A stretch of DNA of 38,337 bases from IMG/VR virus record IMGVR_UViG_3300020420_000035, positions 1 to 38,337 of that record; one strand, written 5' to 3'. The notes under the pieces were generated by a model, which did not search any database, was not told where the DNA came from, and saw nothing but the letters and a program-made list of their open reading frames with translations. The DNA is from a virus. The translations under genes were made by a program, and so were the position numbers. Of the stretch, positions 14,174 through 32,586 are shown one piece after another. Position 1 is the stretch's first letter. Every line of letters starts with the position of its first letter.

Positions 14174-14215
14174 ATTATAATCCATTTTGTTAGACTAGGT
14201 AGGGTAGATGTGACA
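14174..14215 (-). promoter_or_regulatory. promoter module for the 14167-12103 string
   Basis: TGTCAC (14210-14215), 30 bases, TATAAT (14174-14179). The box lies inside the 3' end of the halogenase gene. TGTCAC is also the variant found before the helicase operon. Confidence 0.58.
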
Positions 14216-15692
14216 CCTTTTTAATTGTCTCAAGATAGTCCTTATGATCTACCATTATTGTTTTACTCTTGTAATCCATGATATAGTCATGTTGCTGTCT
14301 AGCATCATCATATAATAATTCTGGATTTTTTCTTGATTGCATATAATCCTGTATTGCATCTTTATTGAATAGGTTAGTTCCCTTCATTACCTGTATGTAA
14401 TTATCATTACCCCAATAATCTAACATATCATCAGTATCAAATACATCTAGGAACTCATGCTTACATTTTTCCTCCAAAGTCCTTACCCAGTCAGTTTTAT
14501 TATTCTTCATGTGTCTCCAGAATTTAGAGTCAGTTCTATTTGTACAATAATGTAAGTTTAAAAACTGTGTGTAATCAAATAGTATTCTATTCTGAACCAT
14601 ATTAAATCTATCTCTATTATAATCTAACATTTTAAGAGTAGAATTTAGACTCATGAATGTCTCTACCATGAATGTTAGATATTGATGAGTTAATGCTTCA
14701 AGTGGTTCAATAAATCCACCTGATAAACCTACTGCTAAACAATTACCTATCCATGCTTTTTTCTGATAACCACTATTCCATTTTATTATTCTAGGTTCTT
14801 CATCTAATCTCTCAGAATGATTTATTGCTAACCAATTATCAAAGTCATGTTTTGCTTCATCATCAGTAGTGAACTTAGATGAATATAAGTAACCCGTACC
14901 ATATTCAGTTTGTGACGGGATTTGCCAAATCCACCCATGTTTAGTTGCATTTGCTAGTGTGTAACTAGGAATAAAATCACTGTGATTTTTTATCTTTTGT
15001 GGTATTGCTCTATCTAATGGTAAATGATGAGATAAATCTACCCACTCTGCACCATCTAACTTATTAAGTAACATAGCATCAAGTCCAGTTGCATCTACAA
15101 ATAAATCTGCACTCACCTCTCCACTCTTTTCACATATAATACTTTGTATATTTTTACCATCAGTATTTACTTCACTTACCTTATCTTCTATGACATTGAC
15201 TCTACCCTTTAAATATTTAAACAGAAAATCACATAATTTATTTGTGGTTATATGAAATGCAAAGTCACATTTATATAACTCAGTAGGAATAGTATTTGTT
15301 GGTTCATTGAAGTTGATACCACCCTTATAACAATCATTAATTAAAGAATAGAATGAACTTACATTACTTGATAACTTATCACTTCTCTTGTCTGTCTCAT
15401 CATTTGCAACTTCCACAAATCCATGATAATACTGTGTATTAGGAATCCAATCCTTGAACAATACACCTAACTTAATTGTTGCATCTAACTCTCTGATAGC
15501 ATCTTCAGTAGAGTATCCCAAAGTTTCATTTAAGACATCAATAAAACTAGGTGTAGTTCCCTCCCCTACACCTATACTTTGATTGTCTGGATTATAATAT
15601 AATGATATATTTACTTTATCTTTCCAAAAATTCTGCATAATTGCAGCAGTGACTAATCCAGATGTACCTCCTCCAACTATTACTATATTCAT
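14190..15692 (-). CDS. flavin-dependent tryptophan halogenase (PrnA-like)
   Basis: 500 aa from the ATG at 15692 (ATGA overlap with the upstream gene; an in-frame ATG at 15698 is also possible). Diagnostic motifs: GGGTSG (7-12, FAD-binding GxGxxG), SIGVGEGTTPSF (39-50), IKLG with K74 at the position of the essential Lys79 of PrnA, GWIWQIP (253-259; the WxWxIP signature), and GLSGGFIEPLEA (322-333) with E329 in the place of the second active-site Glu. All key residues are present, so halogenase activity is plausible; the family uses FADH2, O2 and chloride or bromide. Substrate unknown: free Trp or a protein. Annotated homologues are known in T4-like cyanophages. It lies downstream of a degenerate paralogue. 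Confidence 0.85.
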   Translation of the reverse strand: MNIVIVGGGTSGLVTAAIMQNFWKDKVNISLYYNPDNQSIGVGEGTTPSFIDVLNETLGYSTEDAIRELDATIKLGVLFKDWIPNTQYYHGFVEVANDETDKRSDKLSSNVSSFYSLINDCYKGGINFNEPTNTIPTELYKCDFAFHITTNKLCDFLFKYLKGRVNVIEDKVSEVNTDGKNIQSIICEKSGEVSADLFVDATGLDAMLLNKLDGAEWVDLSHHLPLDRAIPQKIKNHSDFIPSYTLANATKHGWIWQIPSQTEYGTGYLYSSKFTTDDEAKHDFDNWLAINHSERLDEEPRIIKWNSGYQKKAWIGNCLAVGLSGGFIEPLEALTHQYLTFMVETFMSLNSTLKMLDYNRDRFNMVQNRILFDYTQFLNLHYCTNRTDSKFWRHMKNNKTDWVRTLEEKCKHEFLDVFDTDDMLDYWGNDNYIQVMKGTNLFNKDAIQDYMQSRKNPELLYDDARQQHDYIMDYKSKTIMVDHKDYLETIKKVSHLPYLV

Positions 15693-17065
15693 ACGCAATC
15701 GTACCCTATTGTTCCAAATGGTTCTGGCGGGTCAGTCTCCCCCATAGTTGATAATAAATTTGCATAGGGACTACCTAAACCTATTGAATACTCATAAAAC
15801 ATATTTGCATTATTCATCCATGAGTATGGTAGTATCAACTCACCACTAGCATTTTGTCCATGATGTGCTATTCTAAAATCTTCCTCTGTAAATGTATCAC
15901 TTACTATCTTATCTAAGAAATTATTTCCTGTAAATGCACCAGGATGCGAGAATATCGGACTATTCAAATACTCATTTGTTTTCTCTTTAATTCCATTCCA
16001 GTATTCTGTATCATGTCTTGACCCATATTGATATGTAAAACATAAAAAAGATTGTAGAGTTTGTATAATATAACTACCATATTGTAACTGTAGCATATGG
16101 TCATGCACCTCTCTTTCTCTAGCATTATCATTATAAAGGTATCTACATATTTGTTCTGCTACAAAACAAGTTGACTCTGCACTGGTTCCAGGACTTGCAG
16201 GTTCTATATTTAATAATGCAGTACCATTTCTCATATATCTTTTGTTGTCAGGATGTATAATATAATTTGATATTTTAGGTGTCCATGAATGTTCTTGATA
16301 AAAGAATGTTCTTTGTCCACCATTGACTGTCTCATCAAATTTAAAATTAGGAAATACCTCCTTAAAATCCTCTACAACCTCTAGTTCATGAGTAATAGTG
16401 TTATCGTATAGATATATCCATCTTTGACTGTCACGCAATGGTAAACCCACTATGTGACCATACTTAGCAGCATACTCAATAGTATAATTCCAATGACCTT
16501 TCTCTGGTATCTCTATCATTATGGCACTATTACTAAATGTCACACTTGGACTCATGTAATCATCTTCCCATCCTAGTGGATTTTTCTCTGTGCAATCTAT
16601 AACATAATCATACTCATTATTATTAATTAAACACTTATCATCAGTAACAGAGAATGAATCTATTTTCTGTTGTATTATACTTACATTCTTTCCAAATATC
16701 TTACCACCATCTTTTAAAAAATGCTGTCTAAATTTTTCAATATCAAATGTATTACTACATCCTGTTACCATAAAGTTTTTATCTCTTCTGTTACCCCAAC
16801 CAACATACTTATACCCACAACTGTCAACACCGTCACAATACTTATCTAACCATCTTTTTGTAAAATATATTTCTCTTTCTAATACTTCTTGGAACGCAAC
16901 ACCTATCCCACTCAGCATATATGGATATACTTTGTCAGGGTCATGTATTAGGGTGAACTCATCATCACCATACTTTTCTTTGCCATCATACCTTCTGTTG
17001 TTTATAAGCAATGATAACTGTATAAACGCTTCGGGTGTAGCACCTACGATTGCAATTTTTCTCAT
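15689..17065 (-). CDS. degenerate halogenase-like flavoprotein paralogue
   Basis: 458 aa. Same overall layout as the next gene: N-terminal strand MRKIAIVGATPEAF (GxGxxG degraded to GATPEA), KYGHIVGLPLRDSQRWIYLY (201-220) in place of the WxWxIP strand, and LLNIEPASPGTSAEST (284-299) aligning to the GLSGGFIEPLEA segment. By eye, the position of the catalytic Lys is Ser82 (DSCGYKYVGW against IKLGVLFKDW) and the active-site Glu is Gly293. So it probably cannot halogenate and may be a partner or scaffold subunit, or may have a different activity. It overlaps the active gene by 4 bases (ATGA), which fits a two-subunit arrangement. The alignment is by eye. Confidence 0.62.
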   Translation of the reverse strand: MRKIAIVGATPEAFIQLSLLINNRRYDGKEKYGDDEFTLIHDPDKVYPYMLSGIGVAFQEVLEREIYFTKRWLDKYCDGVDSCGYKYVGWGNRRDKNFMVTGCSNTFDIEKFRQHFLKDGGKIFGKNVSIIQQKIDSFSVTDDKCLINNNEYDYVIDCTEKNPLGWEDDYMSPSVTFSNSAIMIEIPEKGHWNYTIEYAAKYGHIVGLPLRDSQRWIYLYDNTITHELEVVEDFKEVFPNFKFDETVNGGQRTFFYQEHSWTPKISNYIIHPDNKRYMRNGTALLNIEPASPGTSAESTCFVAEQICRYLYNDNAREREVHDHMLQLQYGSYIIQTLQSFLCFTYQYGSRHDTEYWNGIKEKTNEYLNSPIFSHPGAFTGNNFLDKIVSDTFTEEDFRIAHHGQNASGELILPYSWMNNANMFYEYSIGLGSPYANLLSTMGETDPPEPFGTIGYDCV

Positions 17066-17073
17066 AAAATTAT

Positions 17074-17670
17074 TTATGACATAAAATTAAAGTTTATCAA
17101 CACTCTTCTTTGACTATCAGTAGGTGAACCTGCATGATAAAAATTAGATGGAAATACTATTAATCTACCTTTCTTTGGTGATATACGATCTATTGGTTCC
17201 CACTTGTGTTCAAATCTATTTTCTATTCCTACCTCATCATTAATATCTCTCTCTTGAAATAGATATGTGTCTCCAGTAGCATCAGTAACATAATATATGG
17301 CACTAAATCCTCCAGAGTCAGTTGTATCTGTATGTGGTGGATAATGCACTATGTCATCTTTTACTGGTGTCTGTAATATACCTCTAATCCTTACTGGTCT
17401 GTAGTCTGGTAAAATATCATCTACTACCTTACTCATTAAACCTATCATAGTGTGATAGAGTGATGTATCAAACACCTTTCCATCTTCAAATACATTAACA
17501 GTAAATTGTGGGTATCCACCACCTCTCTTATCACCTGTTTTATAATCCATTGACTCCTGCCAATTCCAAGGGACTTCTGGACTTAATAATAATTGTTCTA
17601 TAACATTTTGATAAGTTGGACTAATAAAATCATCAAAGACTTTAAATTTGTGTGCTATTGGTGTAATCAT
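17074..17670 (-). CDS. 2OG-Fe(II) oxygenase (prolyl-hydroxylase type)
   Basis: 198 aa. A double-stranded beta-helix core with H113-x-D115 (PPHTDTTDSGGFSAIYYV), distal His179 (FPSNFYHAGSP), and Arg188/189 (SQRRVLINFNF) as the 2OG-binding base. The N-terminal 100 residues form the usual helix-rich cap. This is an intact 2OG-Fe(II) hydroxylase. The cyanophage context (next to a halogenase pair and, 2 kb away, a collagen-like gene) suggests a protein or small-molecule substrate; the sequence does not say which. It is ATGA-coupled to 17667-17936, and the halogenase-like gene starts 8 bases beyond its stop. Confidence 0.82.
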   Translation of the reverse strand: MITPIAHKFKVFDDFISPTYQNVIEQLLLSPEVPWNWQESMDYKTGDKRGGGYPQFTVNVFEDGKVFDTSLYHTMIGLMSKVVDDILPDYRPVRIRGILQTPVKDDIVHYPPHTDTTDSGGFSAIYYVTDATGDTYLFQERDINDEVGIENRFEHKWEPIDRISPKKGRLIVFPSNFYHAGSPTDSQRRVLINFNFMS

Positions 17671-17936
17671 TCACAATCTTTGGTAGTTAATATATCAAAT
17701 GGGATAACTTTGTCATCAAGTAAGAAGTCATGATATTGGTCAGGATCTTCAAAATTTTCTTCAACATTATCCATAAACCCTTTGAGTTCTCTAATGAGTT
17801 TCCAACAGGCATCTTGTTCGATTTTCTCCTCTGGAGATAAGTCTTTGAACCTACCTAGTCTAGCATAATATTCATACTTTAGTGTGATATATTCTCTGAC
17901 CTTGATAAAGTCCTTAAATGTTGCTACTTTGTCCAT
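17667..17936 (-). CDS. hypothetical helical protein, 89 aa
   Basis: MDKVATFKDFIKVREYITLKYEYYARLGRFKDLSPEEKIEQDACWKLIRELKGFMDNVEENF... is largely helical with a basic first third and an acidic C-terminus (EDPDQYHDFLLDDKVIPF). It overlaps the ligase-like gene by 13 bases and the hydroxylase by 4. No family recognised. Confidence 0.58.
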   Translation of the reverse strand: MDKVATFKDFIKVREYITLKYEYYARLGRFKDLSPEEKIEQDACWKLIRELKGFMDNVEENFEDPDQYHDFLLDDKVIPFDILTTKDCE

Positions 17937-19096
17937 GATTTTACAACAGTGATGTTTGCTTGCCTAAAATCATCATCAACAAACTTTAGGTTAGTACCCT
18001 TATATGATACCACATATCCCTCTGGTTGTGAAGGAACTTTGTTAACGAAAGTTTTGATCCTATCTACCTTATTTAACTGACTTAGTACCATCTTCTTAGC
18101 AGTACGAACTGAGATGTAAGATGCAACCACAAAATAGATTTCTAACTCAAACTTTTCTATGAATTTTAGACCCATGTTTTTCATGTGCATATATCTTTTC
18201 TTTGCAGTCTCAGTCTTTTTCTTATCAATCTCTTCATCCATCTTTCTCGCATAGAATAGTGCAAAGTCTCCTGCAACTCTCTTAGTATCAACAACACCCT
18301 TACCAGTTCTAATTCTGTCATTGAAAAACTGTTTGAATAGTGTTGCCATCAAGAATTTAGATGTGCCATACTCATGTATAAGTTTTAGAAACTCTTTTGA
18401 CTTGTGTATAGAACCTGATGCTCTGTTGATAAGAGCAGTGTACTTAGCACTATCACGAACATTGAACTTAGTAATACCTGACTCATCTACAAAATTAGCA
18501 TCTGCAACATAACATTCTTTTGTGCTAGGTATCTTTAATTGAGCATTTACCCCTGCTGTAGAGGTCTGTATGGTGTCTCCTAAGTAAACTGTATGAAATA
18601 CTATACCTAACTCTGCCTCTGTGATACTGATGCCCTTGAGAGAGTCAACTGGAACTGCATAGGTAATAGCATTAGGTGTAAATGTAATATATCTTTCACC
18701 ATCTAAATTTGCATATTGTGTATCATTAGTAAATAACAAGTCTCCTTGAACCATACCTCTGATACCTAGTGTAGGTAGATACTTAAGACATACTTTAAGT
18801 TTATTTGCTAACTGTTCATCATCAGGTGCAAAATAATATAAATCTATATCTGTCTCTGTGTAACAAACTTTAGGATTGAACTTATTGAATACTGATTTAG
18901 TACCAACAAAGAATCTATCAGTCTGTGGGTCAATGCCACAAATAATAGCAGGTGAACCATCCCACTTTGTGCTGATTGTTAAATTGGATTTCCTACCAGT
19001 CAGCATGTGACCAAATGATTTTAGGAAATCAATGGTTTCTTTAGGTGAACCATTGAGAATATTGTCTTCTAGATGTTCGAGATGTGTGTTTTTCAT
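17924..19096 (-). CDS. ligase-superfamily nucleotidyltransferase-like protein
   Basis: 390 aa from the ATG at 19096; the frame is open to 19138 but the -10 at 19103 favours this start. KWDG (44-47), preceded by LTIST, is the motif I lysine of ATP-dependent ligases and capping enzymes. It is followed by FFVGTKSVFNK (62-72, motif Ia/III-like), QGDLLF (117-122, the DGEL-like motif III) and LGIVFHTVY (163-171). EGYVV...TNLKFV (359-373) has the spacing and residues of motifs IV and V (EGxVxK...lKxK). Between them lies a helix-rich stretch of about 190 residues, Lys-rich, which is unusual. It is annotated in cyanophages as hypothetical as far as I remember. Likely an RNA or DNA ligase-fold enzyme; the substrate is unknown. 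Confidence 0.6.
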   Translation of the reverse strand: MKNTHLEHLEDNILNGSPKETIDFLKSFGHMLTGRKSNLTISTKWDGSPAIICGIDPQTDRFFVGTKSVFNKFNPKVCYTETDIDLYYFAPDDEQLANKLKVCLKYLPTLGIRGMVQGDLLFTNDTQYANLDGERYITFTPNAITYAVPVDSLKGISITEAELGIVFHTVYLGDTIQTSTAGVNAQLKIPSTKECYVADANFVDESGITKFNVRDSAKYTALINRASGSIHKSKEFLKLIHEYGTSKFLMATLFKQFFNDRIRTGKGVVDTKRVAGDFALFYARKMDEEIDKKKTETAKKRYMHMKNMGLKFIEKFELEIYFVVASYISVRTAKKMVLSQLNKVDRIKTFVNKVPSQPEGYVVSYKGTNLKFVDDDFRQANITVVKSWTK

Positions 19097-19102
19097 ATCT
19101 CT

Positions 19103-19108
19103 ATTATA
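19103..19108 (-). promoter_or_regulatory. -10 element TATAAT before the ligase-like gene
   Basis: GCTATAATAGAGATATG: the ATG is 6 bases after the -10 hexamer, so the transcript would have almost no leader. No TGTCCA box at the module spacing. TATAAAAT lies just upstream (minus strand), which could be a late-type element. It is listed because it helps decide the start. Confidence 0.4.
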
Positions 19109-19147
19109 GCAAATTTTATACCCTTTGTGTGAGTCCATTTGTGCCAG

Positions 19148-19747
19148 TTATTGAAATGGTTTTCCACATAACCATACCACTAGACTTTTCCTACTTCCTT
19201 TAGTTACAGGTGTGACTTGATGTAATGAGTAACTTGGAAACGCAATCACCAAACCTCTTTCTTTTGGAAGTGTTGAGAGTCTACTAGAATGAATTTGAAA
19301 GTCACCACCTTCATACTCATCAGGATTTGATAACTGTAAGGTGATACTTAACTTTCGTTGAGGATACTCAGATCCTTTTATACCATTATCTATATGCCAT
19401 CCATAAAAACAACCATCACTATTATACCTTGTGTATTGTAAATCTTCAGCAAATCCTGATATATCGAATCTCCAATGTAATCCATTTAAACATCTGCATA
19501 TATTTCCTAACCTTTCATATATCCACTCAGTATCTTTATTCAGTCCTATCCATGAATTTAATGATTTTCTTATTTGTTCATTTGATTTCTGTTTTTCAGC
19601 ATCTGCACCCACTGTAGAGTTCATTGCATTATATAACTCACCTATTTCAATTATTCTATCACATTCATCAGGTGTAAATCCATCTTCCCAAGTTGCAAAA
19701 TCACACTCATCATATGTCGGATGAGGTAATAAAGGATAATGTGCCAT
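19148..19747 (-). CDS. prolyl-4-hydroxylase-like 2OG-Fe(II) oxygenase (PKHD type)
   Basis: 199 aa. H118-x-D120 (FYGWHIDNG), distal His176 (PSYSLHQVTPV) and Arg186 (TKGSRKSLVVWLCG) are complete. RKLSITLQLSNPDEYEGGDFQI is the usual P4H strand pair, and FPSYSLHQVTPVTKGSRKSLVVW is typical of the PiuC/PKHD-type bacterial P4Hs. It lies directly downstream of the collagen-like gene (gap of 6 bases) on the same transcript. A role in hydroxylating Pro in that protein is an inference; PKHD members in other systems modify various substrates. Confidence 0.85.
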   Translation of the reverse strand: MAHYPLLPHPTYDECDFATWEDGFTPDECDRIIEIGELYNAMNSTVGADAEKQKSNEQIRKSLNSWIGLNKDTEWIYERLGNICRCLNGLHWRFDISGFAEDLQYTRYNSDGCFYGWHIDNGIKGSEYPQRKLSITLQLSNPDEYEGGDFQIHSSRLSTLPKERGLVIAFPSYSLHQVTPVTKGSRKSLVVWLCGKPFQ

Positions 19748-19753
19748 AATAAA

Positions 19754-21523
19754 TTAGTAAATTACTCGAATGTCTCCTCCATTTGGGATGACTTGATAAG
19801 GTGTACCAGATACTGCTCTACCTGCAGCACCTCCACCAGGATTTGACTTACCCCAGTCTCCACCTGCAACACCAGGTTGACCAGGTGTGCCAGGTGTACC
19901 AGGTTGCCCATCACCACCAGGTGTGCCATCTGTACCTGGTTGACCTGGTGTGCCAGGTGTGCCAGGTGTCCCATCACCACCAGGTGTTCCATCAGTACCA
20001 GGTTGCCCATCTGTACCAGGTTGACCAGGTTGACCATCTGTAGCAGCACCACCTTGTGCGGGTTGACCTGGTTGTCCACCAGAACCAGGATTTCCTTGAG
20101 TCGCTGATCCACCAGGTGTACCAGGTTGACCTTGAGTTCCTTGAGTTGCTGCGGTTGCTGAAGTGCCAGGTGTACCAGGTGTCCCTGCACCACCAGGTGT
20201 TCCCTGTGTGCCAGGTGTTCCACCAGAGGAATTTAGAGTTTCAGTTAGATTGTTCCAACCTCTACCTCCACTACCAGAACCTGCTAATCCTTTAACACCC
20301 TTAACTCCATTATAACCCCCTTGTCCAGCTAAACCACCTTGTCCTCCTTGACCACCTAAACCTTTGCTTCCTCCTTGTCCACCAACACCTGCTCCACCAC
20401 CTGCTCCTTTTCCTCCTCCAGTACCACCTTGCCCTCCAAGACCACCTGCCATAGCAGCACGATTATTGATAGCATACTGTTGTGACTGTTGAGCATTTGC
20501 AGTTTGTTGTGTTGCCTGTGTAGTAGTTTGGTTACTAGGATACCTTGACCACCACTCTCTGCGTCTTGATGTGTTTTGAGTATAAGATAGAATGGTTTGT
20601 TGTACTGTGGTAGTAACTCTTTGCCAGTTATATGAAATCCATGTTTGCTGACCTGGTTGACCTGGTTGACCAGATGAACCTGGTGTGCCATCTATTCCAT
20701 CTGAACCTGATGAACCTGGTGAACCATCAACACCATCTTGACCATCAGCACCAGGTTGACCATCAACACCTGCCTGACCTGGTGACACATTATTACTTCC
20801 ATCTGTCCCATCTACACCGTCTACACCATCAAATCCTCCACCACCACCTGCCCATATTTTAGAAGTTGATCCTTCACATGATACAAATACAACTCTAGTT
20901 GCAGGTGCAGAGGGATTTGATATTGTTATAGCATGACCACCAGGATTTCCTGTTCCTGTTCCTTTAACACCACCTGCTGCCATGATACCCATACCTGCAG
21001 GAGAATTATTAACAAATAGATTAAGATTAGATGATGCAGAACTGGCAATTGATACAGCAGGTGTGCTAGTATCATCTGAGACTATCCTACCTCTAATTTT
21101 TAAGTATTTGGTAATATTTCTATTGAGATTATTTCCCCAGTTTACACTAGCAGTTGGTGTGTCAGGTCCTGTAAGAGTACCTGCATCAAATTTCTGCTCA
21201 GTTGCATTTGGGTCTTGTTCTATAACATATTCTTTTATTATATCTTTTACATCTTGAGGTGATATAGCACCACTTGTAGGTACTCCAACATTTTCTACAG
21301 CATCTAAAATATATGGTAAATGTGGATCTGAGGATGTAGGATGTGCAGGGAAATTATATGGTGCGTCTATATCTGTAACTCTATACAATTCTGATGCAGA
21401 AATAGATTTTGATGTATCACCTATTGCTGCTCTAATTTGACCAAATGAAAACTCAGTATTATTTGGTATGTCAGATGTTTTTAATAATTGTTGGGTAGTA
21501 TTTGACCAATCAGGTGCTGCCAT
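19754..21523 (-). CDS. collagen-like phage structural protein
   Basis: 589 aa. Residues 1-230 form a globular N-terminal part with a Gly/Asn-rich stretch (GGVKGTGTGNPGGHAITI). Collagen-like Gly-x-y triplets appear at about 230-305, then a Trp/Gln-rich insertion (WISYNWQRVTTTVQQTIL...), a Gly-rich section, and a second collagen-like part (about 440-560) rich in GTPGTPG and GQPGTDG. The end, GGGAAGRAVSGTPYQVIPNGGDIRVIY, resembles phage fibre tips. Pro is very often in the Y position, followed by Gly (X-Pro-Gly), which is the substrate position for prolyl-4-hydroxylase. Probably a trimeric fibre or decoration; the position in the virion is unknown. Confidence 0.8.
   Translation of the reverse strand: MAAPDWSNTTQQLLKTSDIPNNTEFSFGQIRAAIGDTSKSISASELYRVTDIDAPYNFPAHPTSSDPHLPYILDAVENVGVPTSGAISPQDVKDIIKEYVIEQDPNATEQKFDAGTLTGPDTPTASVNWGNNLNRNITKYLKIRGRIVSDDTSTPAVSIASSASSNLNLFVNNSPAGMGIMAAGGVKGTGTGNPGGHAITISNPSAPATRVVFVSCEGSTSKIWAGGGGGFDGVDGVDGTDGSNNVSPGQAGVDGQPGADGQDGVDGSPGSSGSDGIDGTPGSSGQPGQPGQQTWISYNWQRVTTTVQQTILSYTQNTSRRREWWSRYPSNQTTTQATQQTANAQQSQQYAINNRAAMAGGLGGQGGTGGGKGAGGGAGVGGQGGSKGLGGQGGQGGLAGQGGYNGVKGVKGLAGSGSGGRGWNNLTETLNSSGGTPGTQGTPGGAGTPGTPGTSATAATQGTQGQPGTPGGSATQGNPGSGGQPGQPAQGGAATDGQPGQPGTDGQPGTDGTPGGDGTPGTPGTPGQPGTDGTPGGDGQPGTPGTPGQPGVAGGDWGKSNPGGGAAGRAVSGTPYQVIPNGGDIRVIY
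19861..20800. repeat. DNA repeats encoding collagen-like triplets
   Basis: Tandem variants of the 9-base word CCAGGTGTG (plus strand), with CACCAGGT and TTGACCAGG, encode Gly-x-Pro and Gly-x-Asp triplets on the minus strand. The region explains the long open frames on other strands here, which are not genes. Such repeats can expand or contract by slippage. Confidence 0.75.
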
Positions 21524-21530
21524 AGTTTCC

Positions 21531-24092
21531 TCAACTGAATGAACCTAGTACAATGGAACCTACTCCTACTAGATTTAGTACAGCAGTATTTCCTACTGTA
21601 ATTATTTCATAACCAGTGGTTGCACTACCTACTAATGATCTCCACTGATCATCTGCACAATAAACCTGTATTTGATGTGTAGGTGAGAAATAACCCATGT
21701 TAGAAGTTGTCCAACCAACTGGTTCATCTACTGGGAATGTTGGTGTCTGGTTTGTTTTACTTTGCTCACTCTCAAATATAGGACCTTTGAATCCTCTAAT
21801 CGCCATCCAGTCATTAAGTGTCTTACCATATGTCTCTGACACCATACCAATAAAGTTACCACTTCCCTGACCCATAGCAACTCTAAGTTTCATATCATGC
21901 TTACTGAACCAGATGTTACCAGTATGATCTCCATCACTGTGGAAGAATGACATACCACTATTATCTGTATTTCCTTCGCATACTGGTAAACATAGTGGAG
22001 CTCCTGCTGCTCTCATATCTAATGCACCACCAGGTTGAGTAGTGTTGAAACCAACTTGAACCACATTTGTAGCAACACCCACAGTGCCACCCATACCAGT
22101 GTGATCTCCAAACAATCTAATATTTCTATAGATGTCTACACTCTCTACTCCTTGACTTGTAGCAGCAACTGCAGTTGTACCAATACCAATACTACCACTC
22201 TCAAATATACTTACTGAATCTAATAAAGCATTTCCATTTCTACCGTAACCAACATAGAACTTACTGTTCATCAATCTGTCACCAGATGTTGTTCCAATAC
22301 CAACACCCTGAGAGTATGCGTCCATGAACAATTCTGACTGTGTAGCATATATCTCTACACCATCTGTAATTCTACGAACTCCAGTATTGACTCCAACATA
22401 TTGACTGAACATTCTAGTGTTCTGTCCAGATGTAACTAATATATCACTAAATGTACTAACACCTGATGCTCTATATCCAACAGCAGATACAACACCTGTA
22501 AGACCATCAATTTGAATTTGACCCGTTGATATTGTTCCAATACCCGTTACATTTAAACCACCTGCTATTTCTAAACTACTTGCCTTTGCATTTCCTATTG
22601 TGGATATACCTGCAACATTTAAGTTAGTTCCAACTATACTTGCACCTGTAATATTTCCACCACTAATAGCACCAGTCGCTGTGATAGCATCAGCACCAGT
22701 GATAGAACCATTCATAGTAATTCCTGATCCTATGATTAGTCCACCACCATTCAATACTCTTATATCTGAACCTGCAACGGTATTACCAACAACTAGACCA
22801 CTACCAATAGTCTGTCCTCCACCAATATTTGAACTATCAGTTGCATCTAATTCTCCTGCGGTTACAGTTCCAGTAACATTAAAGTCAGCACCACCTGTGA
22901 CAGTTCCTTGGAATGTTGATATACCTGCAACAGATAGACCTGCACCAACATTTAATACATTAATATTTTGTGTAGAACCTAACTCAACAGTACCTACTAA
23001 ACTACCACCGATTGATATACTTCCACCTAATATTAGATCACCATTATGGACTCTAACTGTACCAATAAATCCACCTGCATCACCAACTGCAGATATAGTA
23101 TTACCTACACCAATAAAGTTTCCAACTCTTAAATCTTCTCCTACTGTGCTAACACCTGCACCTCTGAGGAATGTAGGTGCTGTACCATTGATGTCAACAG
23201 AATCTACTTGAATATCTGGATCTCCACCTATACCATACGCAATTGCTGCATTTAATGATGTAGTTGCAGTTCCACTAAATGTGGTTGCAGTAACAATACC
23301 ATTGCTTGCTGTGATTCCACCTGATACTTGTATAGACTCAAACTCTGTAAGGTTGGAGAATGTTCCACCTCCAGATACAATACTGCTGACAATTATAGCA
23401 GGTACATCAGTCAATCCTTGTGCGTTGGTTGCAACTGTAGCAGTATCTGCATTACCTGCTAGACTTCCAACAATGGCACTGGATGCTGTTATGGTTGAGA
23501 ATGTACCAACATCAGCGTTTATATTACCCTGTCCTGCACCTGTCTGATTTAATACTGTGATATTTTTTGTTACTAATCCTTCAAATGTACCGATACCACT
23601 CTCGGCATCCATGTATATTTCATATCCTACAGCAAAATCTGAACCACCTCTGGGTTGTTCAGTTCCAATTCCTACATCTTTTAATGTAAAGATAGTGTCA
23701 CCTGCACCAGGATTTGTCCAAACTGATGCGGGAATATTTGTTAAATTTGCACCAGAACCAAAATATTCTACAGCAGTAACATTACCTTGCTCATCTACTG
23801 TGAATCCTGTAGTTCCAATACCAACTTGAAATGCTGCCTCTGGAACTGTAGTTCCTATACCTACTGATGATCCACTACTAACAGCAACATCATTCTTAAA
23901 TGAAGTAATACCTGTAACTGTTACATTATTAAATTCTGCACCTTCAGATACTATGACATTACCACGAACATCTAATTGTTGTCTAGGTATTGTACTACCA
24001 ATACCCACCAGACCATTATTGGAGATGAGGTCATCAGTATCTACTTGAATCCCATCTCTGAAATTTATGACTGATTTATAATTGCTTGGCAT
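21531..24092 (-). CDS. large fibre-like structural protein with GIGTT repeats
   Basis: 853 aa. The N-terminus (MPSNYKSVINFRDGIQVDTDDLISNNGLVGIGSTIPRQQLDVRGNV) is typical of the cyanophage tail-fibre-like proteins. The rest is built of short repeats with G-I-G-T-T or S-V-G-I-G-T (for example SVGIGTTVPEAAFQVGIGTTGF, SVSIFESGSIGIGTTAVA), Gly/Ser/Thr rich and strand forming. The C-terminal 150 residues (MSFFHSDGDHTGNIWFSKHDMKLRVAMG...) look like a receptor-binding or structural tip. It starts 27 bases after the 1753-aa gene. Role assignment is by analogy. Confidence 0.72.
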   Translation of the reverse strand: MPSNYKSVINFRDGIQVDTDDLISNNGLVGIGSTIPRQQLDVRGNVIVSEGAEFNNVTVTGITSFKNDVAVSSGSSVGIGTTVPEAAFQVGIGTTGFTVDEQGNVTAVEYFGSGANLTNIPASVWTNPGAGDTIFTLKDVGIGTEQPRGGSDFAVGYEIYMDAESGIGTFEGLVTKNITVLNQTGAGQGNINADVGTFSTITASSAIVGSLAGNADTATVATNAQGLTDVPAIIVSSIVSGGGTFSNLTEFESIQVSGGITASNGIVTATTFSGTATTSLNAAIAYGIGGDPDIQVDSVDINGTAPTFLRGAGVSTVGEDLRVGNFIGVGNTISAVGDAGGFIGTVRVHNGDLILGGSISIGGSLVGTVELGSTQNINVLNVGAGLSVAGISTFQGTVTGGADFNVTGTVTAGELDATDSSNIGGGQTIGSGLVVGNTVAGSDIRVLNGGGLIIGSGITMNGSITGADAITATGAISGGNITGASIVGTNLNVAGISTIGNAKASSLEIAGGLNVTGIGTISTGQIQIDGLTGVVSAVGYRASGVSTFSDILVTSGQNTRMFSQYVGVNTGVRRITDGVEIYATQSELFMDAYSQGVGIGTTSGDRLMNSKFYVGYGRNGNALLDSVSIFESGSIGIGTTAVAATSQGVESVDIYRNIRLFGDHTGMGGTVGVATNVVQVGFNTTQPGGALDMRAAGAPLCLPVCEGNTDNSGMSFFHSDGDHTGNIWFSKHDMKLRVAMGQGSGNFIGMVSETYGKTLNDWMAIRGFKGPIFESEQSKTNQTPTFPVDEPVGWTTSNMGYFSPTHQIQVYCADDQWRSLVGSATTGYEIITVGNTAVLNLVGVGSIVLGSFS

Positions 24093-24119: not shown

Positions 24120-27100
24120 TTATTTATCTTTGATGTCATCAACCTTATTGGAAAGATCTTTGACTGCCTCTATGAGTAGAGGTATAAGTTTATTATAGTG
24201 GACACCTTTTGTGCCATCAGGTTTGGTTGATACTGCTTCTGGTAAAACCTTCTCAATATCTTGTGCGATCACACCTATGTCATGTCCAGAATAGTTTTTG
24301 TTACCTTCCTTCCAGTCGTATTCAGTACCACGAATTTGCATAACTTTGGCAAGAGGATTATCTAGTGTAGATATATTCTCTTTCAATGATATATCAGATG
24401 ATTGACCATAGAACGCAACAATGTCATCACAGACATGTAAAGGTCCTCCACAGAATGTAGCACCTGCACCTGCGAAATATACATCACCACTAAATGTTGT
24501 GAATCCAGTATTCTCAACTAATTGGTTATAAGTTACAGGTGCATCATACTGTGTATCAGTTGCAATTGCAACTCTGAAACCAGGTGCTGCATTTAGAACC
24601 AAGTTACCTTGAAGTGTTTTAGTTGTAATCTCATTCTTATTAGTACCAACACCAACAAGTACATTGTTGATAGCAGCACCATTAGGGAATGAACCAGAGA
24701 AGTCAATGTCTCCTGCTAGTTCGATAGTTCCACTGGATACTACCTTACCAGTCATAGAAACATCATTGGTCATAGTAACAGGACCATCAAGTTGTGATAG
24801 TATGTTTTGACCAGTACCACCTTCAACATTAAGTCTCTGTTTAACTGTGACTTCATCAAATACAACAGAGTTTGCAGAAGGATCTTCTCCTGTTATGCTT
24901 GGGATAGGAATATCAAATGATTTTTCCTGTCCAGTTGCAGAGTTAATCTTCTTATTACCAATAAAGAAGTCACCTCTATTGTTTAGTCCTGTATATACAT
25001 TTGAACCACCACCTCTATTCTGTGCCTGTGCTAAGTATTCCTCAGTCTCAGTTAGAGTTCTGTTCTGTACCTGTGGTAAACCAGTTGAGTAGTTACCAGG
25101 ACCATAACCAAGATATTCAAATGTGTGACCTGATGCTCTTAAGATAGATGGTCTTCTACCCTCCACTGCCAGAGTTCTTATCTTACGCATTGGAGAATTA
25201 ATCACATGAGTCTTAGGAACTGTTCCTAACTGACCTCTGAGAACAGTGAGTGAATCATTTCCTGATCCAGTTAGTCCTGTGTCAGCAACTCTTACAATCT
25301 CCTCATTAAGTTCAAGATAATCTCCTAATTCAAATCTATTTGCAGTACCAATACCACTAGCATGTTGTACTGGAATTACTGTTGCTGTTGCTGTTATATC
25401 AGTTTTTAATCCTACGCTATCTCCACCATATAGATTGAAATATCTAGCACCTATTGCTTCTTTAACATCAACTGTCTGGTTGTTATCTGAGAAAGCATGT
25501 GGTAGTATTCTATATCCTGATACAAATACTGGATCTGTGACTGTGGTTGAAGTAAACTCATTAGGTGATGCGATAGTATTACTATAGAAATCTCCTATCT
25601 TATTATTGTTATTATCTACAAGTGTAAACTGTCCTCCTCTCCTAATATTATGAGGAGTAGATGTAGTAAATGTTGTCAATCCTGTAGTAACATCAAAATG
25701 AGTAGATGCTATAGCAACAGAAGGACCTGATTTAAAGATGTATTGTCCAGATGCAGAATTATTAGGAATTATTGTGGGATCTCCTGCGGTAGCAGCAATA
25801 GCAATACTACTTGAAGAAGGAATGGATGTAATTCTGTAATATCCATCAGATGTCTTACCTACACCAGTTACCTGTATTGTATCATTGACATTGTTAATAA
25901 TACCTGCAGTTGGAACTCCTATGGATGCACCTGTAAAGTTCTCAGGGAATAATGTCTCTCCTCCAACATAACCAGAGCCAGGTGACTGTAGTTTGAAATA
26001 TGTTATCGAAGTAGAACCAACACCAACTTTTATATGTGCAGTTGCACCATTCCAATTTTGTGATCCATCTAATAATCTTACATTATATTTGTCTGTAACA
26101 GCAAATCCTGTGCCACTACTAAATGGTGATAGATTTTCATATTCTTTCACCCCGTTGAAATCATGCTGTCCCGTAAGTTGAACAGTTACAATACCTGCTG
26201 ATACTGGAGTAACACTAGAGACACCAAGACCAACACCAAAATTTTGTGCAAATTTATCTATTGCTTCTCTAGTTGATGAGTTAAGTATGTTATTAGAATC
26301 AACCTTACCAAGTGGAGCTCTTCTTGCGAAGGACTTCATAGCAGGTGGGTTCTTTCTTACATTATCTCTATCTAACTGTGGATAGAAATCACTAACCTGC
26401 TGACTATAATTTTGATCTGTAAATTCGCCAGGTGGTGTGTAATCAGATGCTAAAATTTCTAATAGATATACACCATCAGTTTCACCTTTAACATAAGGTT
26501 TCAATACTGTAGATCTATACACATCAAAGTTACCTTTGTTATCCTTAACAGTAAATCTAGGTAAATCTAAACCTCTATTTGCAGTATTGTCTATGAAATT
26601 ACCTGTATTTTTTGTATCTCCATCTACATCAGTATTACTATACTGGAACTCCATGTTATTAGGAACTCCAGTTACAGTATAGAATCCATTATATCCTCTT
26701 TTATCTACACCTGTAGGGTTGTTACTATCAAGAATATTCTCAGTATATACAAGTTGTCCTACCTTTACACCATGTGGTAGTTCTGCTCTAACTGTGACAG
26801 TATTACCTACTTCACTTGTTGTTGCAATAAACCCGTAGTTTCTCTTGAAATTATTATCCGAAGAAGTAATTGAAGTTGCAGTAGCATCAGATGTTTTTGC
26901 AAATCCAGTTGTGCTTGAAGGTTGCAATACAAATCCATCTACGGGATCTCTTGAGTTCTCTGCCTCTTTTGGAATTACATAACGAACTTTATATAATTTG
27001 TTATCAATACCTCTACGATCTTCATATCTCTTGAAGTATGATGCATCAGTCTCAGGATTATTTTTAACATAATCATTGTTATTAAGTTGATCGTAAAGAT

Positions 27101-29381
27101 TAGAGTTTGTCTCAGTTAAAACATACCAGTTTTTCTGTGTATCATCAAACTGAACTGGATGTCCTATGTCATTAGGTTTCTTATCACTAACTCTACTTTC
27201 TATTCTTAAATCACTACCACCATAAACTGATATAGGAATATTATTAATAGCATTTGATAATGTGCTTGCTAATTTTAAACCAGTTGGTGTAGATTTGATT
27301 GCATAGTAAACTCTATTTGGTTCTAATCCCTCTGGTAGGTCACCATCATCACTAATAACACGAATTGTCTCACCATTTACGATACCAATATCTTGTATTG
27401 CCAGTTCAAAATTAGTATTAGGTACACCTGCAGTACTAAATTTAGTTCCTTGATGGGAATTAATACCGATACCTGCAGTTTGAACACCAGTTGTTACATT
27501 CTCTGGCATATAAACTGGAGATCCAAATTCAGTACCACCTATGGATACATATAATTCTTCATTTAAGTTTGCACCTAATCTATAACCCTGTGTTAATGGA
27601 AGTGGTGGTACATCTTCTCTATTGAATCCAGAGAGATATAAGTGTGATGATATACCTGCCTGTTGTGTTTTATCTACATCTAACTGGAAATATGATATTT
27701 TATCTCTGTTTTCCTCATAAGTAGGAACCCACTCAGGAGAAACAATGTGTGTGATATATCCTTGATCATCCCTTGGGAAAGCATCTGGTCTAAATCCACC
27801 TGCAATTAAGGCATGTTGTCCAAAGTTGGAGTTAGAGTTAGTGATTGAAGCATCAGCACCACCTGACCCCTTAATATGACCATTATAACCAATAGCAAAT
27901 ACTGATACAATCTGCATGACTGCATCATTATCCATTTCTACATGGTTTTGTTCCCATCCCTTACGATATATTGCACCACTATCTAAATGATACACTGTGT
28001 TAGGGTCAGTAGAACTAGATTCTGCTGCTAGGGTAGCACCTGTAGTCTTTTGATATGCTATTCCTTCATATTGACGACTCTCTTTATTATATTTTACAAA
28101 TGCTCTATCATCTTTCTGTAGTGATATACCAGTAAACTGAGCAACAACCATGGATCTGAAACCATCTGCCTTTGCTCCATCTGCTTTCATACCATTCATA
28201 CCATAGACTGATCTTAGAGAACAGTTAAAGATATAAGGTGATGCACCTTTTACAGTATCTGCTTCAATAGTTGCTCTTGCTGCACTAATATTTGTAGGTG
28301 TAGCAGGTAAGTTAGCAGGGACATCAGGTATTAAGTATGTAAACTGCGTAGCTGATGGTACACTCTGAACAGATGTTGATATATTATATGGTGTAACATT
28401 GACACCACTAATCTTAATTGGTGTGCCTGTAGTCAATCCATGAGGTGACTGGGTTGTGACAGTTACCTGAGTGGTAGCTGTTGTACCATCACCTGCTATA
28501 ATTGATGATATAATAATAGGGTCATTACCTAACGCACCAACTATCTCGTATTCTGGTCTTACTTTATCGAAGTCACCTAAGAAATTAGGATACTCATAAT
28601 CGACCTCTCTACCAGTTGGTTCTTGGTATGCATAACTTAGTTTGTAATAGTACATACTAAGGTCGGTTACATACCCTTCTACATCATTCACACCATCAGC
28701 ATACTCAAAACAAGTTAATTTGTGATGAGAGAATGTTGGTTTTGATTGATTTGCTTCATTAAATTGTTGATGATCGGTATATACCAAACCGTTTTCATCA
28801 CCATCAAAGAATGAAAACTGCCAGAAGTAGCAACTACCTGTAATTCTCATTATTGCAGATTTGGGTACTGCATCATCTGTAGGGTTTGGGACATATAAAG
28901 GTCTTATCTTTGTCTTTCTTAAATCCATACCAACTATGGAAGTACCTCTTGGTACAATTACACCACCATAGACTGAGTTAAATTTGTATAGTACATTATT
29001 CTCAACTGATAAGTCAAACTCACTTGTAAGACTTAATCCAAAAGTTAATGATGCTAATTGTTCTGCACCTGTAGGTGATACTGATAATGCTCTAGTCCCA
29101 TCAGTAGGGTCTGGTTTTATTGCAAATCCTGGTCTATTATCAATTTGATGTTCGCCTGGATATATCAATATAGTTGTCTTATCTGTGTCATCATTATCAA
29201 TACCTGGTTGATATGAAAATCTTGCTGACTCTATAAGAGCTCTTTGAATTGTCTTGAAAGGTTTTGTTAAAGAGTTACCTTGGTTGGTGATACTGTCTGT
29301 AGAGTCCAAATCATTTGGATTTACATAAAGGATTCGACCCTCGGTATTCTTTATAAAATTTTCTAACTTATTTAATGGCAT
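24120..29381 (-). CDS. giant tail-fibre protein with C-terminal S74 chaperone domain
   Basis: 1753 aa. The N-terminal 90 residues (NTEGRILYVNPNDLDSTDSITNQGNSLTKPFKTIQRALIESARFSYQPGIDNDDTDKTTILIYPGEHQ) have the 'tkPFkTIqrAl' and 'I-x-IyPGeY' signature of pectate-lyase-like beta-helix proteins of cyanophages. The middle is long, strand-rich and Gly/Asn/Thr-rich. The C-terminus (from about 1662; SDISLKENISTLDNPLAKVMQIRGTEYDWK..., then HDIGVIAQDIEKVLPEAV) is a peptidase S74 intramolecular chaperone with the SDxxLKxNI and DIGxIAQeV motifs. Such domains trimerise the fibre and may cleave themselves off. It is the first gene of the fibre operon, starting 32 bases from a late promoter. Confidence 0.88.
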   Translation of the reverse strand: MPLNKLENFIKNTEGRILYVNPNDLDSTDSITNQGNSLTKPFKTIQRALIESARFSYQPGIDNDDTDKTTILIYPGEHQIDNRPGFAIKPDPTDGTRALSVSPTGAEQLASLTFGLSLTSEFDLSVENNVLYKFNSVYGGVIVPRGTSIVGMDLRKTKIRPLYVPNPTDDAVPKSAIMRITGSCYFWQFSFFDGDENGLVYTDHQQFNEANQSKPTFSHHKLTCFEYADGVNDVEGYVTDLSMYYYKLSYAYQEPTGREVDYEYPNFLGDFDKVRPEYEIVGALGNDPIIISSIIAGDGTTATTQVTVTTQSPHGLTTGTPIKISGVNVTPYNISTSVQSVPSATQFTYLIPDVPANLPATPTNISAARATIEADTVKGASPYIFNCSLRSVYGMNGMKADGAKADGFRSMVVAQFTGISLQKDDRAFVKYNKESRQYEGIAYQKTTGATLAAESSSTDPNTVYHLDSGAIYRKGWEQNHVEMDNDAVMQIVSVFAIGYNGHIKGSGGADASITNSNSNFGQHALIAGGFRPDAFPRDDQGYITHIVSPEWVPTYEENRDKISYFQLDVDKTQQAGISSHLYLSGFNREDVPPLPLTQGYRLGANLNEELYVSIGGTEFGSPVYMPENVTTGVQTAGIGINSHQGTKFSTAGVPNTNFELAIQDIGIVNGETIRVISDDGDLPEGLEPNRVYYAIKSTPTGLKLASTLSNAINNIPISVYGGSDLRIESRVSDKKPNDIGHPVQFDDTQKNWYVLTETNSNLYDQLNNNDYVKNNPETDASYFKRYEDRRGIDNKLYKVRYVIPKEAENSRDPVDGFVLQPSSTTGFAKTSDATATSITSSDNNFKRNYGFIATTSEVGNTVTVRAELPHGVKVGQLVYTENILDSNNPTGVDKRGYNGFYTVTGVPNNMEFQYSNTDVDGDTKNTGNFIDNTANRGLDLPRFTVKDNKGNFDVYRSTVLKPYVKGETDGVYLLEILASDYTPPGEFTDQNYSQQVSDFYPQLDRDNVRKNPPAMKSFARRAPLGKVDSNNILNSSTREAIDKFAQNFGVGLGVSSVTPVSAGIVTVQLTGQHDFNGVKEYENLSPFSSGTGFAVTDKYNVRLLDGSQNWNGATAHIKVGVGSTSITYFKLQSPGSGYVGGETLFPENFTGASIGVPTAGIINNVNDTIQVTGVGKTSDGYYRITSIPSSSSIAIAATAGDPTIIPNNSASGQYIFKSGPSVAIASTHFDVTTGLTTFTTSTPHNIRRGGQFTLVDNNNNKIGDFYSNTIASPNEFTSTTVTDPVFVSGYRILPHAFSDNNQTVDVKEAIGARYFNLYGGDSVGLKTDITATATVIPVQHASGIGTANRFELGDYLELNEEIVRVADTGLTGSGNDSLTVLRGQLGTVPKTHVINSPMRKIRTLAVEGRRPSILRASGHTFEYLGYGPGNYSTGLPQVQNRTLTETEEYLAQAQNRGGGSNVYTGLNNRGDFFIGNKKINSATGQEKSFDIPIPSITGEDPSANSVVFDEVTVKQRLNVEGGTGQNILSQLDGPVTMTNDVSMTGKVVSSGTIELAGDIDFSGSFPNGAAINNVLVGVGTNKNEITTKTLQGNLVLNAAPGFRVAIATDTQYDAPVTYNQLVENTGFTTFSGDVYFAGAGATFCGGPLHVCDDIVAFYGQSSDISLKENISTLDNPLAKVMQIRGTEYDWKEGNKNYSGHDIGVIAQDIEKVLPEAVSTKPDGTKGVHYNKLIPLLIEAVKDLSNKVDDIKDK

Positions 29382-30401: not shown

Positions 30402-30532
30402 ACTATTCAGAAGTAATGCAGGTGTATAAAAAACCAGTATCAATGAAATATATACCTTTAAAGCATGTGCCTAACATTTTTAGAGGTGCTTTGACTGTAG
30501 CAGTATTATGTCAATTCCTCACATCAATCTAG
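30398..30532 (+). CDS. hypothetical small protein, 44 aa
   Basis: MNYSEVMQVYKKPVSMKYIPLKHVPNIFRGALTVAVLCQFLTSI: basic first half, C-terminal hydrophobic segment (about 30-44). It is ATGA-coupled to the exported gene and overlaps the start of the next gene by 25 bases. The overlap suggests it is translated, but it is short. Confidence 0.48.
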   Translation: MNYSEVMQVYKKPVSMKYIPLKHVPNIFRGALTVAVLCQFLTSI

Positions 30533-31320
30533 AAGGTGGTTCGATACCATTTACACATATAAACAAGATAGGTGTATACGATACTCGTATATGGGTGTTT
30601 ACACCACCATCAGCAATACCAAACCATTTACCTGCAACTACTCTGATTGGAGTTCCAATCGTGGATATGCCTGGTTGCGTGAAGATAAGTCGAGAGAATT
30701 CCAGTCGGAAGGAAGGCAATAAGAACAAGGCACTAGTAAACGACGACCCCAAAGGTAATATTGTATTATGTGATGGCGGTCTTCCTTACTATGAACCGCC
30801 TGACTATGAACGAGAGGATTTAACATGGGAAACAGTTGTAACAGAAAATGAGGAAGCACCTCCAGTAGATACTGGTGATCCTCCTCCACCACCAGAGTCG
30901 GATACATCACCACCAGACACACCTGAGACTGATAAAGAAATAGAGTGTCCTCCAGTAAATGCTAGAAGAATAGGAGATAGATCTCAGACTGGTGAAGAAC
31001 AAGTAGCAGGGTATAAATTAACACCTGATGGATTGATCTGTGAGACAATCTGGGAACCAGTCCCTGCAGTAGAGCAGTTTTTACCATCTGTAGAAGTGGT
31101 ATCTACTACAGCAGTAATTGCTACTGTGGCAACTGCGTCTGCCCTATTTGCAAAACCTTTAGCAGATCTGCTCCTCCGAGTGGTGAAGCCTGTTGTGAAG
31201 AAAGGGATTGATTCTGCGAAGAAGAAGTTTGGGAAAGGGGAGAAGAAGTTGTCTCGTTCTGAGGTTTTATCAAATAAGTATCGGGATTCAAAGGGTCTGC
31301 CTCCTCTGAAGAAGAAGTAG
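30508..31320 (+). CDS. Pro-rich protein with C-terminal membrane segment, 270 aa
   Basis: The N-terminal domain (1-90) includes HINLEGGSIPFTHINKIGVYDTRIWVFTPPS. A Pro/Asp/Glu-rich linker follows (115-145; DTGDPPPPPESDTSPPDTPETDKEI), then a short beta-like part and VEVVSTTAVIATVATASALFAKPLADLLLRVV, a membrane span. The end is Lys-rich (KKGIDSAKKKFGKGEKKLSRSE...). Similar proteins with a 'TTAVIAtvAtaSALfAKPLADLLLrvvKPvvKK' tail are known in cyanophages, I believe, with no function. The last 200 bases overlap the minus-strand gene at 31121; codon use there shifts to G-ending codons (AAG, GGG, GTG). Confidence 0.75.
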   Translation: MSIPHINLEGGSIPFTHINKIGVYDTRIWVFTPPSAIPNHLPATTLIGVPIVDMPGCVKISRENSSRKEGNKNKALVNDDPKGNIVLCDGGLPYYEPPDYEREDLTWETVVTENEEAPPVDTGDPPPPPESDTSPPDTPETDKEIECPPVNARRIGDRSQTGEEQVAGYKLTPDGLICETIWEPVPAVEQFLPSVEVVSTTAVIATVATASALFAKPLADLLLRVVKPVVKKGIDSAKKKFGKGEKKLSRSEVLSNKYRDSKGLPPLKKK

Positions 31321-32143: not shown

Positions 32144-32586
32144 TGTATAGTTGTTGTTCTTTGAATTATTGTTTGATTTGTCATGCCAGGTCCCTGATAA
32201 CTTTGAGTGAACTGGAATGCTCCACCTGGATCTTTTAGTGTGAAGTTTGGTTGACTGGAGAGATCTAACGAATCGAATGATGAGGTTAGACTTGATGTTA
32301 TCACTCCACTGCCATTTGCTGCCGACATTCCTGGCGACACATAAGTTGTGGAGTTTGTCACATTTGGATTCACGGGGTTCTGACCATTTTCGATGCCTAC
32401 CCCTGTTACTGAGTATTCCCATCCTGTACGATAATCAATTGAATTTATGGTTTCTTGCACCGTAGACTGAGTTTCGGTGCGGCTCGTCATCGAGCCTTGT
32501 TGGAAATTAGGGACCACAGGAACAGCAATCGCATTCCTCGCACTCGCAAGGACTACAATCACAACACTGGCAAGTAGTTTCTTCAT
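32107..32586 (-). CDS. exported Ser/Thr-rich protein, 159 aa
   Basis: MKKLLASVVIVVLASARNAIA then VPVVP is a clear signal peptide. The mature part is Ser/Thr/Gln/Gly-rich without Cys (MTSRTETQSTVQETINSIDYRTGWEYSVTGVGI...), ending TTTIQSVTDTTSTFTQ. Its 3' end overlaps the apparent beginning of the next exported protein in another frame. Not recognised; secreted or outer-surface role predicted. Confidence 0.7.
   Translation of the reverse strand: MKKLLASVVIVVLASARNAIAVPVVPNFQQGSMTSRTETQSTVQETINSIDYRTGWEYSVTGVGIENGQNPVNPNVTNSTTYVSPGMSAANGSGVITSSLTSSFDSLDLSSQPNFTLKDPGGAFQFTQSYQGPGMTNQTIIQRTTTIQSVTDTTSTFTQ

Follow-up and report, generated by a model that had tools for sequence, protein, structure and literature searches.

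Known collagen-modifying viruses and the locus under study

Hydroxylation of collagen by viruses is already known from PBCV-1 and Mimivirus (PMC9546862; PMC9301287). PBCV-1 encodes a single-domain 2-oxoglutarate (2OG)- and Fe(II)-dependent prolyl hydroxylase (vCPH; 5C5T), and Mimivirus encodes both collagens, such as L71, and collagen-hydroxylating enzymes (L593/L230; PMC9546862). Here, a locus is described from IMG/VR virus record IMGVR_UViG_3300020420_000035, a 38,337-nt fragment from a T4-like marine phage of Kyanoviridae type that has not been cultured (this whole stretch is referred to as the window), in which a gene for a collagen-like, probable tail-fibre-tip adhesin is followed after six bases by a gene for a prolyl 4-hydroxylase (P4H)-type enzyme, with a second 2OG oxygenase and a pair of halogenase homologues further downstream. 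The genomic associations presented below make it likely that the P4H-type enzyme hydroxylates the phage's own collagen-like adhesin, as part of a virion-tailoring operon. The enzyme resembles vCPH in being a virus-encoded single-domain protein of the same fold (template modelling scores 0.68/0.74), but vCPH belongs to an algal giant virus, shares only ~19% identity and has no link to a tail adhesin; Mimivirus, in turn, is a eukaryotic giant virus with neither a tail adhesin nor a halogenase.

The P4H of Bacillus anthracis acts on collagen-like peptides and prefers position Y over X of the Gly-X-Y triplet (PMC8968730), but is a cellular enzyme with no phage adhesin gene alongside. Collagen repeats also occur in phage tail fibres (EPclPs), which carry proline mainly at X and have no hydroxylase (PMC3368898), whereas the window adhesin carries proline only at Y and is encoded next to one. 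A list of host-recognition genes from the genomic islands of marine phages includes Fe(II) oxygenases (PMC3909814). P4H genes rank with the commoner 'auxiliary' genes of marine viromes, and what viruses use them for has been called cryptic (PMC9301287); the 2OG oxygenases of cyanophages have been explained through NtcA signalling (PMC3037559). No tailed-phage hydroxylase tied to a collagen-like adhesin was found in the papers searched, which mostly excluded subscription journals and did not include bioRxiv, and a tailed-phage adhesin version of collagen hydroxylation appears to be undescribed in them.

Association of P4H-type genes with collagen-like genes

Among 36 IMG/VR contigs encoding homologues of the window adhesin (identity 52-98%), a P4H gene was located downstream of the adhesin gene in every case, and at a distance of 3-9 bp in 35. 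From the enzyme side, 80 IMG/VR P4H loci were grouped into 25 clusters, and expected values were obtained by drawing other genes of the same loci; a collagen-like gene was present at most two genes away and on the same strand in nine clusters, compared with 2.8 expected (p=0.0005), so that the pairing extends to P4H homologues of unrelated marine phages. DNA-pattern scans for (GXP)5 and (GPX)5, which are blind to P4H, returned further P4H-collagen pairs, such as L189 (P4H 9 bp downstream) and, in other phages, L227, L238 and L246. The first-pass annotation had proposed that the phage enzymes hydroxylate, and perhaps halogenate, the collagen-like virion protein; the co-occurrence that this implies among related phages was evident for the hydroxylase, for which the genomic support is strong, while that for the halogenase is weaker (see below).

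Homologous adhesins of S-SRM01, L340, L343, L344 and L363 have neither GXP repeats nor an adjacent P4H gene, and more distant members of the P4H family are located far from the adhesin in two of the five S-SRM01-type records.

Proline position in the adhesin and the P4H tree

The adhesin was shown to consist of a conserved N-terminal domain (residues 1-225), a collagen-like segment (227-293), a basic, Trp-containing insert (294-360) with the motif RREWWSRYPS, a Gly-rich (GGX) block (361-417), a further collagen-like segment (435-556) and a conserved C-terminus (DWG...GGAAGRAV). Its collagen-like character, previously proposed, is apparent from a Pfam match (PF01391) and from long uninterrupted Gly-X-Y repeats, with 67 triplets in runs of six or more, compared with 1.3 (maximum 18) when the same Gly-rich half was shuffled. 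Of the 32 prolines beyond residue 225, X-Pro-Gly accounts for 28 and Gly-X-Pro-Gly for 26; within strict GXY runs, proline occupies Y 22 times and X not once, with 13 and none, respectively, in the block comprising residues 497-556. The same bias is seen in all adhesins of the P4H-linked family (0-2 prolines at X, 21-43 at Y).

Collagen P4Hs act on prolines at position Y, and animal P4Hs do not act on those at X. Bacterial and phage collagens have been reported to show no preference for proline at Y, prokaryotes having no hydroxylase (PMC3368898), and prolines confined to Y are therefore the pattern expected of a hydroxylase substrate. Furthermore, the collagens beside P4H homologues split sharply into those with proline at Y and those with proline at X, and these types are separated on the P4H tree by three changes among 28 rows, compared with 9.6 in shuffles, none of 500 being as low. 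The clade of 11 that includes the window enzyme has Y-type neighbours throughout; linked inheritance may contribute to this agreement, but proteins that differ considerably from one another (L019, L021 and L225) are among its Y-type neighbours. The X-Pro neighbours suggest that putative phage collagen hydroxylases include a second class, of X type. A comparison of P4H frequency near Y-dominant (4/23) and X-dominant (7/104) collagens was set aside owing to small numbers and partly truncated contigs.

Neither a tie to collagen-like genes nor a proline pattern would be predicted if the 2OG oxygenases acted as sinks for 2-oxoglutarate or modulators of NtcA signalling, and this role, although proposed for cyanophages (PMC3037559), is considered highly improbable here; the conserved place of the gene in the operon speaks for a specific substrate.

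The P4H-type enzyme and its substrate

As the first-pass annotation had reported, the metal and 2OG ligands are complete in both oxygenases of the locus. In the P4H-type enzyme, the Fe ligands H118, D120 and H176 and the 2OG ligand R186 are invariant in 36 homologues, and ratios of non-synonymous to synonymous substitution rates (dN/dS) were 0.11-0.12. The AlphaFold model (predicted local distance difference test score, pLDDT, 84.6) has the double-stranded beta-helix fold of the family and was most similar in fold to the P4H of Pseudomonas putida (4iw3), with further matches to PKHD-type oxygenases, PHD2 with HIF peptides and the PBCV-1 collagen P4H (5c5t). The P4H gene is tandemly duplicated in L014, L015, L016, L426, L427, L440, L451 and L452, with 40-46% identity between the second copy and the window enzyme in the cases measured.

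Several observations weigh against the adhesin as the substrate. The 36 adhesin contigs represent one lineage (12 clusters at 80% identity, one at 60%), and the presence or absence of P4H in 36 versus five records amounts to a single change on the tree; a Fisher test of this contrast (36/0 versus 0/5) was discarded for that reason. No collagen-like gene lies within 1.7 kb of 72 of the 135 P4H-family hits (43 of 75 after dereplication), and, in other marine phage contigs, P4H homologues adjoin GPT-type collagen tail fibres with proline only or mainly at X (L028, L044, L060, L066, L079, L227, L238, L246, L274 and L287). By sequence, PKHD-type hydroxylases (3dkq, PiuC) match the window enzyme best, and the 4iw3 structure includes EF-Tu; assignment to the family therefore leaves the substrate unfixed. 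An AlphaFold monomer of the full adhesin was uninformative (pLDDT 30), and either a triple helix or polyglycine-II may be formed. The support for the hydroxylase-adhesin link is genomic.

The nearest relatives by fold and sequence are 4IW3, solved with EF-Tu, and the PKHD-type PiuC/Sbal_3634, of which PiuC belongs to iron uptake. Since 4IW3 is the closest fold and about half of the P4H family has no collagen neighbour, the enzyme might instead modify a host protein such as EF-Tu, or another target, its position beside the collagen-like gene reflecting a fibre-linked cargo slot. This is judged improbable, as it leaves unexplained the adjacency in 36 of 36 contigs, the prolines confined to Y and an enzyme tree that follows the proline position of the neighbour; unlike the window enzyme, neither 4IW3 nor PiuC is tied to collagen. 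Hydroxylation of the adhesin is retained as the likely role of the P4H-type enzyme.

The collagen-like protein as a probable fibre-tip adhesin

PHROG matches of the collagen-like protein are tail proteins, and gp53, the S-SRM01 homologue, bears the annotation gp37-gp38 'adhesin tip complex', suggesting that it is probably located at the tip of the tail fibre. gp38 of T2 and S16 is likewise a Gly-rich receptor binder of T-even fibre tips, with polyglycine motifs and variable loops (PMC7917993), and in the present family the order of fibre, tail protein and adhesin is conserved and the adhesin has a Gly-rich block and a variable insert. The window adhesin differs in its extended GXP collagen-like stretches and in the hydroxylase linked to it, and a PDB sequence search did not return a gp38 match. 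A tblastn search with the N-terminal domain against named phages was also without a match, and homology to the S-SRM01 adhesin was consequently seen only through neighbourhood and a direct locus search.

Residues 294-360 constitute the most variable part of the protein. In the marine family this part is basic and contains Trp, and its S-SRM01 counterpart (L002:21174-22262) is rich in Cys and Trp. Located between Gly-rich segments, this insert may represent a receptor-binding loop.

The halogenase pair and its neighbourhood

An intact and a degenerate flavin-dependent halogenase had been proposed for the distal end of the locus, and the motifs bear this out. The hal product retains all four diagnostic motifs, i.e. 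GGGTSG, K76 (K74 from the ATG), WIWQIP and EPLEA with E334 (E332 from the ATG), the Ser that follows the catalytic Glu in EPLES being replaced by Ala. K74, as previously assigned from the ATG, is intact, but E329, likewise intact, is the first Glu of its motif; because RebH and PrnA use the second Glu of EPLES, the catalytic residue is E334. In hal2, all close relatives have GATPEA, HIVGLP and EPASP and no Lys, and a PDB search with hal2 gave no match. The gene is nevertheless under purifying selection (dN/dS 0.07-0.18), and its product is most readily interpreted as a conserved pseudo-halogenase that may serve as a partner subunit. In 13 contigs (L437, L442, L447 and relatives), the only halogenase-fold copy, encoded after DUF6267, retains the Lys and has lost WxWxIP and the catalytic Glu; such proteins may be flavin enzymes of another activity.

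The family and diagnostic motifs of hal are shared with PrnA, RebH and VirX1 of cyanophage Syn10 (6QGM), from which it differs in identity (26-30%) and in having EPLEA rather than EPLES. VirX1, the second gene of the Syn9/Syn10 halogenase pair, also resembles hal in its setting after tail-fibre genes, as a tandem pair and among 2OG oxygenases, although both copies are intact in Syn9/Syn10 and one is degenerate in the window. In Syn9, S-RIM44 and P-TIM40, halogenases are similarly preceded by fibre and fibre-assembly genes and followed by runs of 2OG oxygenases.

A halogenase-like gene was present in the module of 34 of the 36 adhesin contigs, the remaining two ending before it would be reached. 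In S-SRM01, which has no adjacent P4H, the intact halogenase gp52 is encoded between a tail-fibre gene and the adhesin gp53, and relatives without P4H likewise have a halogenase-like gene directly beside the adhesin. Across 42 viral halogenase clusters of IMG/VR, conversely, collagen-like neighbours (one versus 0.8 expected) and recognised tail genes (four versus 4.2) were found at chance, and a general link between halogenase and collagen genes was dropped. A halogenase-like gene is conserved beside the adhesin in this lineage and even in S-SRM01, but viral halogenases in general show no such association with collagen, and 13 contigs of the lineage have only a motif-less copy.

These observations bear on whether the whole locus tailors the adhesin, with hydroxylation of Y-prolines by the P4H and halogenation of Trp or Tyr in the exposed insert (RREWWSRYPS) by the flavin halogenase. 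Peptide-acting flavin-dependent halogenases exist, e.g. MibH. The double Trp (WW) of the insert was accompanied by an intact-motif halogenase in all 16 contigs where this could be read and was absent from all 13 contigs with only a degenerate copy, and in Syn9/Syn10 the genes for VirX1 and its tandem partner come directly after those for fibres and fibre assembly, consistent with such a role. Ten contigs, however, encode an intact-motif copy but no WW, and, because WW and halogenase intactness change only one or two times on the tree, their link may reflect shared ancestry. Halogenation cannot be obligatory, since 13 contigs keep only a motif-less copy. Tailoring of the adhesin by the whole locus, with halogenase action on its aromatic residues, is therefore regarded as a reasonable extension but a rather unlikely one.

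A nearly even chance is given to the alternative that the halogenases and the second oxygenase are enzymes of small-molecule or host metabolism, brought together in the late-gene island by chance or co-regulation, with only the P4H acting on the collagen-like protein. Viral halogenases cluster with varied 2OG oxygenases (23 of 42 clusters versus 15.2 expected, p=0.0006) and with each other (a second halogenase at most two genes away in 14 of 43 clusters), VirX1 accepts many small aromatic compounds in vitro, its natural pathway being left blank in a review table (PMC8407142), and published suggestions have been metabolic (PMC10452541; PMC3037559). What such a role does not account for is the conserved place among fibre and adhesin genes in the window lineage and in S-SRM01-type phages.

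Gene order and other genes of the window

The window also encodes a baseplate-hub/lysozyme protein, a helicase and a large fibre protein that shares 43-49% identity with those of S-SRM01, P-SSM2 and other Kyanoviridae. The minus-strand order runs from the long fibre through the tail protein, collagen-like, P4H-type, DUF6267, 89-aa and second oxygenase genes to hal2 and hal (Table 1); the coordinates, the six-base gap and, apart from the catalytic Glu, the motifs were as first annotated. No close DNA relatives of the module were found among named phages.

Table 1. Position and characteristics of the features of the adhesin locus in the window
Feature	Position	Strand	Characteristics
Long tail-fibre protein	24120..29381	-	C-terminal Peptidase_S74 chaperone, phrog_529
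Tail protein	21531..24092	-	phrog_3269 type; upstream of adhesin in every case
Collagen-like Gly-rich probable tail-fibre-tip adhesin, 589 aa	19754..21523	-	PF01391 5e-9; S-SRM01 gp53 homologue
Longest strictly periodic Gly-X-Y block, adhesin residues 497-556	19856..20035	-	Proposed hydroxylation target
Prolyl-hydroxylase-type 2OG-Fe(II) oxygenase, 199 aa	19148..19747	-	PF13640 6e-16; H118/D120/H176/R186
DUF6267 / phrog_455 protein, 404 aa	17924..19138	-	PF19782 1.5e-104; KWDG motif
89-aa protein	17667..17936	-	Conserved in nearest relatives
Second 2OG-Fe(II) oxygenase, 198 aa	17074..17670	-	PF13640 9e-8; phrog_274 type
hal2, degenerate flavin-dependent halogenase homologue, 458 aa	15689..17065	-	phrog_2928 5.6e-25, no Pfam match
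hal, flavin-dependent halogenase, 502 aa from TTG (500 from ATG)	14190..15698	-	PF04820 2.7e-81

The second oxygenase, in which the ligands take the form HTD..HAG...R, belongs to a family other than that of the P4H (phrog_274 type), and nothing links it to proline. It is 51% identical to SSSM7_124 of S-SSM7, a neighbour of the S-SSM7 halogenase, and gave no match in a PDB search. The name 'DNA endonuclease V' (phrog_274) is carried by apparent 2OG-Fe(II) oxygenases in the window (17074-17670) and elsewhere (L003:8960-9514, L005:22899-23417 and L005:24022-24606); as the window protein matches PF13640/PF13759 and has HxD..H..R, the name seems to be a misannotation that has been propagated. The label 'ferrochelatase' (phrog_3531), carried by small genes of cyanophages, is a similar apparent case. 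Genes for DUF6267 are common elsewhere in cyanophage genomes; the protein had been called ligase-like on the sole basis of its KWDG motif, which is present, but a PDB profile search found nothing in support. For neither the second oxygenase nor DUF6267 was evidence obtained here of a part in adhesin tailoring. Outside the locus, two open reading frames at 30508-31320 (plus strand, phrog_570) and 31121-32422 (minus strand, phrog_848) overlap by 200 bases.

Proposed function and implications

Based on the gene associations and repeat sequences described above, we infer that the collagen-like protein is the substrate, 4-hydroxyproline the product, and stability or receptor binding the purpose. 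Late in infection, the P4H would use Fe(II), O2 and 2-oxoglutarate to act on newly made adhesin chains, targeting the Y-position prolines of Gly-X-Pro repeats before or during folding. Hydroxylation would then lend stability to the collagen or polyproline/polyglycine-II helices by which the receptor-binding part is kept off the fibre. The halogenase-like gene or genes of the same conserved locus might act on aromatic residues of the adhesin, the Trp-containing insert being the candidate. More speculative still is the combined possibility that the hydroxylase makes hydroxyproline in the GXP adhesin while the halogenase, with its pseudo-halogenase partner, halogenates the Trp of the insert, in which case host recognition would rest on chemistry beyond the 20 amino acids.

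The data point to a concrete task for the P4H, i.e. modifying the collagen-like adhesin of the phage itself, and restriction of proline to Y would serve as a sequence signature predicting which phages hydroxylate. If this is true, collagen hydroxylation extends to tailed phages. The adhesin locus also offers candidate substrates for orphan viral halogenases, and, were halogenation of the adhesin to be true, VirX1 and its kin would gain their missing natural substrate.

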